This document shows, piece after piece, positions 4,313-8,110 of a stretch of 64,000 bases of DNA. The first letter of the stretch is position 1. Every line of letters starts with the position of its first letter. Where the stretch lies: assembly GCA_023053545.1 (NCBI GenBank), contig JAKZAN010000004.1, forward strand, positions 8,804,001 to 8,868,000, given 5' to 3'. Both the position numbers and the translations under genes were made by a program. Below the pieces are notes generated by a model. That model was not told the origin of the DNA and did not search any database. It saw only the letters and a program-made list of their open reading frames with translations. This stretch comes from Lepidurus packardi (Eukaryota; Arthropoda; Branchiopoda; Notostraca; Triopsidae).

Positions 4313-4470
4313 GAAATTTTCCAATGCGTTTTTGTTCGAGTATATTCTCTATTAAATTGGCAAATATTAAATCCTAAGCTCTGTACAGTCTCGTCCATAT
4401 CTTCGTTACGTACTAATACACAACTACGTAAGATTTAGAAATATAATACTTAGGGTTTGTCATCTTTTAA

Positions 4471-4908
4471 AGGGGGAGTAAGGTACGAAAAAATAAAAAA
4501 ATATGTTATAGAGGAGACCAAAATAAGTGTTCTGGCTGAAGAACCCCTATGTCAATTATGCATATTAACCGAGTAATTAATTATTTAGCGGTTTAAGCTC
4601 CGCCCCTTTCCGCCAAATTTCAAATTTTCCTATCCTTATAACATTGGCGGACAGTTGGCCGGAGGCCTAGCGACTTTACCTGTGAGCGCATTCAAAATCG
4701 ATCCCAGATCTCATAGGGACCGTACCGTGACCTTTCTTTTGAATGCTTAAGCAGTTTTTTACGCGCTTTGGTTACTTCACAAACTTAATCACAAAAAACC
4801 ACTTTTTCTTCGCGCCACGACGGGAATGTTCCGTTCTGTGGCTCAACGAACGTCAACGCCGCGAGCGTGGAGCTCACAACCTGTGTCAGGATAGCCTGCC
4901 GGACTAAC
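4471..4908 (+). repeat. Left arm of the TTAA-flanked inverted repeat
   Basis: This 438-bp arm is the exact reverse complement of 5092-5529 as far as can be read. It begins AGGGGGAGTAAGG next to TTAA and ends in CTAAC at the loop. Confidence 0.9.
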
Positions 4909-5046
4909 ATATTGGGGAGAGCTAGGCTAAGAAGCCTTGGAACGCGTGTTATCCAAAGTCGACATTCCAAAGCGTGGTCTTGTATACGTGCTGACTATTC
5001 GCTTGTTTAGTTTATTAGTTTGTGTCTTCATAAGCTTTGAATTAAA

Positions 5047-5157
5047 ATGAGTGATAACGATAGTGTTTCAAGCGATTCTTCGGATTCTTCGGTTAGTCCG
5101 GCAGGCTATCCTGACACAGGTTGTGAGCTCCACGCTCGCGGCGTTGACGTTCGTTGA
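5047..5157 (+). other. Short acidic/serine ORF in element loop (possible transposase remnant)
   Basis: A 36-codon frame starts in the loop with MSDNDSVSSDSSDSSVS and runs into the right arm before a stop. Acidic, serine-rich N-termini occur in some TTAA-type transposases, so this may be the leftover 5' end of the parent transposase gene. It is far too short to be functional, and the link is only an inference from composition. Confidence 0.25.
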
Positions 5158-5529
5158 GCCACAGAACGGAACATTCCCGTCGTGGCGCGAAGAAAAAGTG
5201 GTTTTTTGTGATTAAGTTTGTGAAGTAACCAAAGCGCGTAAAAAACTGCTTAAGCATTCAAAAGAAAGGTCACGGTACGGTCCCTATGAGATCTGGGATC
5301 GATTTTGAATGCGCTCACAGGTAAAGTCGCTAGGCCTCCGGCCAACTGTCCGCCAATGTTATAAGGATAGGAAAATTTGAAATTTGGCGGAAAGGGGCGG
5401 AGCTTAAACCGCTAAATAATTAATTACTCGGTTAATATGCATAATTGACATAGGGGTTCTTCAGCCAGAACACTTATTTTGGTCTCCTCTATAACATATT
5501 TTTTTATTTTTTCGTACCTTACTCCCCCT
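5092..5529 (-). repeat. Right arm of the TTAA-flanked inverted repeat
   Basis: Mirror copy of 4471-4908. Its outer 106 bp (5424-5529) is read as the last part of the GUF1 coding sequence on the minus strand, including the stop codon. Confidence 0.9.
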
Positions 5530-8110
5530 TTAAGGACTGCAATAAATGTCTCGCGTGGAACGTCAATATTCGCTATACTTTTCATTCGTTTTTTCCCTTC
5601 AGCTTGACGTTTAAGCAACTTCATCTTCCTTGTGATATCCCCTCCATACTGTTAAAAATAAGTAATCTCACTAAGATGTTTCGATTGGGAAATCCAACAA
5701 AATTACGCATTTAGCAGTGACATCCTTCCTTAATGCGGCAATAGTCTCACGCGCTAGAACCTTTCCTCCAACCACAGCTTGAATAGCCACCTTAAAAGAA
5801 AAATAAAGTACACATTAACAGCTTGTGTTACACGCTTTTAACGTCCTAAATGGTTTTAAGAATTCTTTAAAGTTAGATTACTTGGAAAAGTTGTCGTGGA
5901 ATCGTATCTTTAAGTCTGGCACAAAGCCGCTTGCCATAATCTCGGGCACGCGTCGCGTGCACAATACTACTCAGTTCTTCTACCCGCTCGGCATTCAGGA
6001 GAACGTCCATCTGAATTTCAAAAATAAAAAAGGGATTTTTTTTTATTGAGATAACCCGGGTTTGATTCTACCTTAACAAGACTGGACGTTTCATAGCCAC
6101 ATTCTTCGTAGTCAAAACTGGCATAGCCCGAGGACAAAGACTTGAGCTCGTCATAGAAATCCAGAGCAATTTCATTCAACGGCAGTTTGAAAGAGACCAT
6201 TATGCGACGACTATCCACATTCTTGGCTTCTCTTTGGACTCCACGTCGTTCCATACTCAGCGCAATAATAGGACCCACATAATCATCTCAAATTTTTGGT
6301 CATTATTAGTCAATGCACACAAAAAAAAGGAAATTAATAAATAATGAATCTGATTAAACACCTGGAGTAAAAACAGTTCCGATCACCATGGGCTCTTGGA
6401 TTTCTTCGATGATATTTGGGTCAGGTAGATGAGATGGACTTGTTATAGTGATTACTTCGCTGCCGTATTTCTTTATATTCTTTTCGCCCTTGATTCTGAC
6501 CTTATAAGGTACGCTGGGAGCAGTTACGACTACTTCGGCGCCGTACTCTTGTTCCAAACGTTGGTTGAAGACCTCCATATGCAGTAAACCCAAGAATCCT
6601 AGCCTCCAGCCTTGACCTAACGCAGGACTAAAGAAAAAGTGATGATTCTACCTCAATTTTATGTCGTTTTTACCTGGAGTCAATGTTGACAGTAACACTG
6701 GAATCGTTTAACGTCAACTTGTCGATTGCGCTACGTAACGCAGGCGTTTCGGATTGATCCATAGGGTAAACACCAGCAAATACCATTGGCTTTGCAGGGG
6801 CGAATGATGTCACTGGTTCTACTAGGCATTTAGCTTTATGTAAAGTGTCCCCGACCTTAGCTTCTCGTGTGGATCTCATATTGCAGACTATATAACCAAC
6901 TTGGCCAGCTAAACTGCAACAAAGAAGTGACGATTAGAAGGATTTGTGGATTTATAAACAATTAAGGTGGAATACTATTTACATTTCTTTCACTTGGATC
7001 TCATTGGGACGCAAAACGCCAACTTCTTTCACCTCGTAAGTCTTTCCAGAGTGAAAAGAACTGATTTGGTCGCCTATTTTCACGCTTCCATCGATTACTG
7101 CAGTCAAGGCAATGGCTCCTCTGTATCTATCATACCAACTGTCGAATAAAAGTGCTCTAAATGGCTTACGAGAGTCGCACTCAGAAGGGGCAGGTATTCT
7201 CGTGATGATAGCCTCCAAAACGGACTTAATATTAAGTCCAGTCTTAGCAGAAACCTGTAGACATGTAAAAAATTAAACAAAATTGCTAAAAAGACTAGAT
7301 TCTAGTACTTTAAGGATGCTTTCTGGGTCAATGTCAAAGAGATTCTTCATCTGCTCAGCTACAACTTCGGGATTGGCATTCTTGAGGTCAATTTTGTTCA
7401 TAACAGGGACGATAACGAGATCTCGTGCGAAAGCCAGGTAGAAATTGGCTAATGTTTGAGCTTGGACGCCTTGGTTCGCGTCAACGAGAAGAATTACGCC
7501 TTGACAGGCTGCTAAAGAGCGAGCGACTTCAAAGGAAAAGTCCACGTGACCAGGAGTGTCAATGAGGTTCAAAAGATAGTCTTGTCCTTGGTGTGAATAG
7601 ACTAAAGTAGCTGTCTGGGCTTTCACAGTTATCCCACGTTCTCTTTCTACTTGTAGTTTGTCAAGTAATTGAGGTTTCGAGTCTTCTTTGGAGATCGTTC
7701 CTTTATTAAAAAAAAATAAAGCAACAACAATTTTATATAATTTTGATCGTTGGAAGTTTCCTTTCTGTAACGAGGAGGGTGGGATATTTACCCGTGAATT
7801 CTAAAAGACGGTCAGCTAAGGTGCTTTTCCCATGATCTATATGAGCAATTATGCTGAAATTACGTATTCTTTCTACAGGGAACTCCGAAAGATCGAAAGC
7901 CAATCCTTGCTGTTCGCAAACAGTTCGACTTGTAGAGAAAACTCTTGGGAATCTTTAATACATACAAAACAAAAGCTTATATGCTTTCCTTACATAATTC
8001 ATAATAACAAGAATAATAACTCACTTGAGGCATAATTTGAAGGATGTTCTAGTTACGTTCGGATACACTGGTTGTAATTTCAAAGCCAATGTCGTATATG
8101 GTTTCCACAT
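5424..8110 (-). CDS. GUF1: GUF1, mitochondrial translation factor LepA/EF4-type GTPase
   Basis: Mitochondrial GTPase that acts on the ribosome during elongation. Ten exons: 8110-8025, 7952-7792, 7700-7309, 7254-6983, 6913-6674, 6627-6362, 6286-6072, 6010-5882, 5790-5707, 5648-5424 (689 aa). The N-terminus ([13 protein letters not shown]...) is basic and free of acidic residues, as expected for a mitochondrial presequence. Visible GTPase motifs are P-loop AHIDHGKS (65-72), RERGIT (102-107), DTPGH (130-134), NKID (184-187) and SAKTG. The LepA-specific C-terminal domain is present ([23 protein letters not shown]). The native end would be VLKR, about 656 aa; an inserted palindromic element replaces the final Arg and stop with 34 extra residues (656-689, starting GGVRYEK). 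The fold upstream is intact, so function may persist. Confidence 0.93.

Follow-up and report, generated by a model that had tools for sequence, protein, structure and literature searches.

What is a 1059-bp palindrome doing in the last codons of a conserved gene, where did it come from, and does the gene make any use of it? These questions are raised by the end of GUF1 (LepA/EF4) in a 64,000-nt stretch of the Lepidurus packardi genome (the window, meaning this whole stretch), where an element flanked by TTAA carries the GUF1 frame beyond its expected stop. An earlier note, made from the sequence alone, had taken it for a foldback element. In our view it is probably a young Kolobok-like miniature inverted-repeat transposable element (MITE) with an A-B-A structure, i.e. 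with arms of one parent subfamily (type A) and a core of another (type B), which arose by gap repair, spread in a recent burst and was tolerated in GUF1. The strongest point is the exchange of ends, resolved to the base, rather than the tail that GUF1 has gained.

The element and its parents

An inverted-repeat search returned arms at 4467-4908 and 5092-5533, each of 442 nt including the TTAA, which are 100% complementary and separated by a spacer of 183 nt. Without the TTAA, the element occupies 4471-5529 (1059 bp), with arms of 438/438 bp and its centre at 5000, so that the earlier description of a TTAA-flanked mobile element with mirror-image 438-bp arms about this centre was right to the base. 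Its parts are the following:

4467-4470, no strand: TTAA target-site duplication, left
4471-4908, plus strand: left arm, 438 bp, matching the terminal inverted repeat of L031, a type-A parent of 5576 bp, with 0/438 mismatches; tip AGGGGGAGTAAGG
4909-5087, plus strand: core (element nt 439-617), matching the right end of L033, a type-B parent, with 0/179 mismatches
5047-5087, plus strand: remnant of the start of the parent's possible KolX gene, 13 codons including the ATG, MSDNDSVSSDSSD
5088-5091, no strand: deletion junction, bridged by a 4-nt filler, TTCG, that repeats the adjoining GATTCTTCG
5092-5529, minus strand: right arm, 438 bp, a perfect inverted copy of the left arm, without a mismatch to the type-A parent's opposite end
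5530-5533, no strand: TTAA target-site duplication, right

When up to three mismatches were allowed, TTAA plus the 13-nt tip matched the window twice, both times exactly and at the two ends of the element, against 0.18 matches expected from shuffles, so the element is far beyond chance. No tandem arrays (score of at least 50) were listed within 4471-5529. In the genome searched (108.6 Mb in 344 contigs), TTAA plus the tip occurred 105 times (54 + 51) and the reversed control pattern 0 times. Among the 100 of these 105 tips that were listed, 62 form 31 paired elements, 17 of them 1059 bp long, and 38 are single; a query of 534 bp, made up of TTAA and the left half of the element, gave 64 matches from the best 40 of 262 candidates. 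All copy counts in this text are lower bounds.

Complete parents with both tips were found for each type, two of type A (5576 bp; L031 and L032) and two of type B (5494 bp; L033 and L035). Their 513-bp terminal inverted repeats are 99.6-100% identical, and the two types are roughly 6-10% different inside. A third A copy (L075) is cut off by the end of its contig, and in L074, a third B copy, the sequence retrieved shows no exact second tip. The window element consists of a parent's right 617 nt and left 438 nt, joined over the 4-nt filler. Like other MITEs it has inverted ends, a duplicated target, no transposase and a coexisting parent with the same ends, and judged by its sequence it is an internally deleted, non-autonomous Kolobok-like DNA transposon derivative, although 1059 bp is long for a MITE. 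Its class is thus that of a deletion derivative of parents with 513-bp inverted repeats, not that of a foldback element. Another element with type-B ends (L034, G000 C33:6470-13561, TTAA included) is 7084 bp long and matches the type-B parent only in its outer ~830 + ~600 bp, the interior being different.

Passages of PMC9587614 name as marks of Kolobok elements a TTAA duplication, RR...YY ends and a DDD/E plus C/DxxH transposase. The both-tip elements extracted from L001-L049 are all flanked by TTAA on both sides, except L035 (G000 C3:2837826-2843319), a type-B parent that has TGAA on both sides; the termini are 5'-RR and YY-3' (AGGGGG...CCCCCT). The open transposase exon of the parents, identical in three type-A copies, contains the motifs GDGQCDSPGH, ATDRHRS and then FDVWH, the last two of which would, by motif reading, provide the C/DxxH after the second catalytic D. 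GDGQCDSPGH holds a candidate first catalytic D, invariant in comparison with a second genomic family at 29-33% identity, and KCCQHP lies where, by position only, a zinc finger between DxxH and the last E would fit. L031 also has a THAP exon (PF05485, E 4.2e-9, cut-off passed) and, near its right end on the strand opposite to the transposase, a short cysteine-rich gene that starts MSDNDSVSSDSS and has a later frame with WCSCLHCRHMPTNLENRCCRE; this gene possibly resembles KolX of the Kolobok Kol0 group.

Several points weigh against this assignment. Pfam offers no strong match for the transposase (PF20700 Mutator, E 0.0096, is below cut-off) and none for its second frame. Reading it through needs a putative intron of 50 nt in A and 48 nt in B, without which the three A parents are frameshifted and the three B parents have a stop there. 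The putative KolX matched P2RX7_C weakly (E 0.11, 12.8 bits, cut-off 23.5) and gave no hit in PDB at an E limit of 10. The Kolobok assignment is one by published marks and motifs.

Two other interpretations were given up. The break in the transposase had been taken for a frameshift (A) or a stop (B), but every one of the three A and three B copies has it, and it is now read as a putative intron. PiggyBac, considered first for its TTAA, is disfavored by the THAP and DxxH transposase and by the AG...CT ends (AGGGGG), piggyBac ends being of CCY type; no piggyBac Pfam match was obtained in the parent exons scanned. The genome also contains a second, distant Kolobok-like family with GDGRADSPGHSAKY (L059-L064; G000 C16, C8, C5; 29-33% identical), two members of which (L062 and L063) have a THAP-like frame by eye.

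Exchanged ends and a recent burst

Where, then, do the arms and the core come from? Three B-B-B copies of 1059 bp (L028, L030 and L071) are mutually identical. Between them and the window copy there are 40 differences, all of which fall in the arms, as 20 + 20 exactly mirrored ones. The 183-nt centre holds 0/40, for which the probability would be ~0.0005 if 40 changes were placed at random. The arms match type A at 438/438 positions on each side and the core matches type B at 179/179, whereas type A has 7 mismatches to the core in the first 97 nt, plus an additional insertion. Since the arms are those of type A and the centre is that of type B, the element is, by sequence comparison, an A-B-A mosaic in which both ends have been exchanged.

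At least 14 A-B-A copies of 1059 bp exist, including that of the window; 13 are byte-identical and one (L010) has a single substitution (element nt 559). They have 14 different left flanks, with TTAA on both sides. The prediction that other TTAA-flanked copies would be found is thereby borne out, by at least 13 more A-B-A copies (12 byte-identical and one with one substitution). Perfect palindromes are a known hazard of assembly, and one may ask whether the element is a false inverted duplication. However, the same genome carries further copies at other TTAA sites: the 14 A-B-A copies occupy distinct ones, three B-B-B copies have the same breakpoints and the parents have the same arms, so that the chance of an artefact is vanishingly small.

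Because there is one substitution per 14 x 1059 = 14,826 bp, the A-B-A burst is very recent. B-type MITEs of a second length, comprising four identical 1096-bp copies and one 1097-bp copy with three differences, are also young. The family is old, and young in part only, because diverged arms and older paired copies (L068-L070) are present as well: among the 11 of the 38 single tips that were fetched, seven (L077-L082 and L084) have arms ~79-88% identical to those of the window over the matched stretch. The same 11 include three type-A or type-B long elements (L074, L075 and L076) and a truncated A-B copy (L083). In one copy (L016, G000 C6:9955964-9957016, TTAA included), each arm has a matching 7-bp deletion inside a short direct repeat, and there is one unmirrored substitution too. 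The double deletion suggests copying from arm to arm, or possibly two slippage events, because it sits in a short direct repeat.

The origin of the mosaic may be reconstructed as follows. An internal deletion in a type-B parent left the right 617 bp and ~438 bp of the left end, as the anatomy shows, and both arms were later swapped for type-A arms while the type-B core was kept, as the matches to the two parents show. The likeliest route would be abortive gap repair: a type-A parent would have been broken, each of its surviving ends would have paired with a B-type MITE, and the core of that MITE would have been copied. If a broken type-A parent was indeed repaired from a B-type MITE, one exchange event is enough; alternatively, gene conversion could have taken place in two rounds. 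To judge from the near-identity and the TTAA, the A-B-A copy then moved into TTAA sites in a recent burst, presumably through a Kolobok-like transposase, for which the type-A parents would be the simplest source. One copy entered a TTAA overlapping the last GUF1 codons, where, in the DNA, the Arg is lost and the frame runs 34 codons into the arm. The site would have been tolerated, the conserved LepA C-terminus being complete and the insertion young and possibly not fixed.

Some observations speak against so simple a course. In the truncated L083, position 445 carries the A allele and the switch point is hence another one, so there may have been more than one exchange. Furthermore, the identical B-type copies (three of 1059 bp and 4/5 of the 1096-1097-bp class) indicate that B ends were recently active too, so A ends are not needed to explain the burst. 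It is also conceivable that the mosaic is ancestral, i.e. that type A once had a B-like core and diverged after the MITE had formed. The arms of the MITE are identical to A, as expected for direct A descent, but its core equals present-day B at all 179 positions, its deletion junction is exactly common with the B-B-B copies, and A and B are ~6-10% apart inside, all of which makes this order of events improbable, and we continue to favor an exchange by gap repair.

One may further consider that the double end swap gave the MITE the ends of another active transposase and so raised its success; copies of 1059 bp number 14 A-B-A against 3 B-B-B. If this were true, the long, perfectly kept inverted arms would be an adaptation for end trading. 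We find it doubtful, since B-type MITEs of both lengths have identical copies, so that B ends were not dormant.

The consequences for GUF1

The features of the gene that matter here are:

5424-7954, minus strand: GUF1 (LepA/EF4) coding exons, from LepA matches and frames read by eye, a range not anchored at its 5' end
5427-5528, minus strand: 34 codons over which the GUF1 frame enters the right arm
5424-5426, minus strand: stop codon TAA of the extended GUF1 frame

LepA-matching open frames were found at 5424-5651, 5873-6067, 6018-6287, 6354-6647, 6670-6933, 6979-7272 and 7273-7800, and two further frames, one at 5671-5814 and one, containing HIDHGKSTL, at 7733-7954, were assigned by eye. The GUF1 frames cover residues 29-157, 159-247, 252-325, 331-404, 414-484 and 554-595 of E. 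coli LepA, and no lesions were seen in the LepA-matched parts, the first residues and part of 485-553 being outside the search. Positions 1-40 of Pfam LepA_C match 5873-6067, while positions 68-107 of its 107 match the last exon and end exactly at ...AVLK; bacterial LepA chains in PDB extend a few residues beyond ...AVLK only. Read on the strand of GUF1, the sequence with the element gives ...IAVLK, 34 codons and a stop, and the joined flanks (the empty site) give ...IAVLKR and a stop. The earlier note had thus correctly placed the insertion in the last GUF1 codons, with AVLKR and a stop restored upon removal of the element, at the length expected for the family, and it had correctly followed the frame for 34 codons into the right arm, as far as DNA is concerned. 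Its statement that the C-terminus is replaced applies to the final Arg codon, and the remainder is an addition. The stretch 5540-6400 had one genome match, with no second copy of the GUF1 flank and no empty-site haplotig.

The same tail has been produced elsewhere. L010 (G000 C2:9467050-9468116, TTAA included) breaks an open frame and gives it the same 34 codons as in GUF1, because its TTAA is in the same codon phase. The interrupted frame itself matches no Pfam family, but two frames downstream on the same strand match Sulfotransfer_1 (1.2e-34 and 8.3e-21), and, going by order and strand, it is probably the first coding exon of a gene for a sulfotransferase. For 21 copies, a list was made of the longest frame that is open when the flanks are joined; besides GUF1, 8 of the 20 were scanned against Pfam and none was over the cut-off, 12 others (some of 90-168 amino acids) being outside the scan. 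L012 lies inside an open frame of 263 amino acids with a sub-threshold SWIM match, and an adjoining frame has a transposase-like RNase H C-terminal match. Insertions into coding sequence have probably happened at other places too, so the one in GUF1 calls for no functional explanation.

Exaptation and tolerated damage had both been proposed for this site, and it is the latter that fits better. Coding exaptation would imply that the 34-codon tail is expressed and kept for an effect on GUF1 (e.g. targeting or stability). It is true that no stop interrupts the 34 codons and that the conserved LepA C-terminus ahead of them is intact. However, the tail is unaltered element sequence with 0 differences from 12 other copies, so it bears no trace of selection, and L010 yields the same 34 codons in the probable sulfotransferase exon, so the tail is set by codon phase and tip sequence and not by GUF1. 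Exaptation is thus very unlikely, and the insertion is probably recent damage that was tolerated, a harmless chance event rather than a new function, and incidental for GUF1 itself. Nor is the gene strictly essential, as the term "essential-type" had suggested: passages of PMC8280776 describe GUF1 mutants, deletion or ablation in yeast, worm and mouse, and loss is survivable.

The insertion might also act at the RNA level, making a weak or null GUF1 allele, if an AATAAA in the arm caused polyadenylation before the stop and hence a non-stop mRNA, or if the arm hairpin fed RNA interference. This AATAAA is 22 nt inside the arm on the GUF1 strand, ahead of the stop at element nt 104-106, and AATAAA/ATTAAA is absent from the ~140 nt of empty-site flank examined. 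In a transcript crossing the element, the two arms are predicted to form a stem of -945.9 kcal/mol (a value with no shuffle control at such length), in keeping with the long 3' hairpin suggested before. Nevertheless, AATAAA easily arises by chance in an A-rich stretch, and we view an RNA effect as possible but rather unlikely.

Finally, the element might be spliced out in the manner of an introner, giving GUF1 a different tail. Both signals can be read in the tips, a donor GGGGGA/GTAAGG in one and, in the opposite one, CTTACTCCCCC as branch point plus pyrimidine tract, and transposon-derived introners are described in PMC9860276. With the flank read by hand, however, splicing to the nearest AG is not lossless: it leaves 4 extra nt and a shifted frame. 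AAG would moreover make a weak acceptor, and we regard such splicing as quite improbable. An introner with exact excision was rejected, the GUF1 frame not being restored.

Neighborhood, significance and known systems

The gene next to GUF1 is:

2241-4312, plus strand: convergent neighbor of GUF1, with a repeat-rich frame (2241-3767) and a CBM_14 chitin-binding frame (3800-4312)

These two frames are probably one gene. In-frame 30-bp tandem repeats with LGLNNGQFG-like units occupy 2862-3178, within the frame that lies just upstream of the CBM_14 frame. Beside GUF1, 8492-8607 and 10024-10151 form an inverted pair of 97-98% identity, ~1.4-1.6 kb apart, which by eye is possibly an inverted partial duplication of gene sequence. 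Elsewhere in the window, 24546-24577 is an unbroken run of 32 G. The genome at large has at least 150 Chitin_bind_4 matches above the cut-off (150 of 266 candidates scored), against none in 14 control genomes, as would suit an arthropod; the nematode cuticle collagen family had 0 matches, a result of little weight given that it had none in the controls either.

This locus provides a clean, base-resolved case in which a non-autonomous transposon changes both ends between two parent subfamilies, with copies identical to every part still present. In addition, the very young insertions in coding exons, in GUF1 and the probable sulfotransferase, have a fate that is traceable in populations. A literature search by titles and openings of abstracts did not find such a Kolobok mosaic described, and we do not claim that it is absent from print.

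Drosophila Foldback (FB) elements have long inverted arms composed of short tandem repeats. Long inverted arms are also found here, but no tandem-repeat arrays were listed in them, the target duplication is TTAA and the parents encode a Kolobok-like transposase. With the Kolobok Kol0 group (Kolobok-1_XT type, with transposase and KolX), as characterized in the main text of PMC9587614, the parents share the TTAA duplication, 5'-RR...YY-3' ends, a DxxH-type transposase and a second, short cysteine-rich KolX-like frame, but they differ in their near-perfect 513-bp terminal inverted repeats, their weak KolX match and their THAP exon, THAP having 0 occurrences in that main text. Xenopus T2-MITEs, presumed non-autonomous Kolobok members according to passages of PMC6004289, likewise are non-autonomous with a TTAA target, an AGGRR-type tip and, in some subfamilies, multiple identical copies, whereas here parents with identical ends were found and the arms are 438 bp long.

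The same kind of exchange event is already known from Galileo of Drosophila mojavensis (P superfamily), since, in the copies described in passages of PMC3573991, this element has long inverted repeats and includes copies that combine the core of one subfamily with both ends from a different one; its authors propose that exchange founds new subfamilies. Galileo belongs to another superfamily and has a 7-bp duplication, whereas in the present element 40 mirrored sites resolve the exchange, and donors identical to each part are still in the genome. The Galileo-based idea, that long inverted repeats aid the trading of ends and thus the formation of new subfamilies, thereby becomes directly testable.

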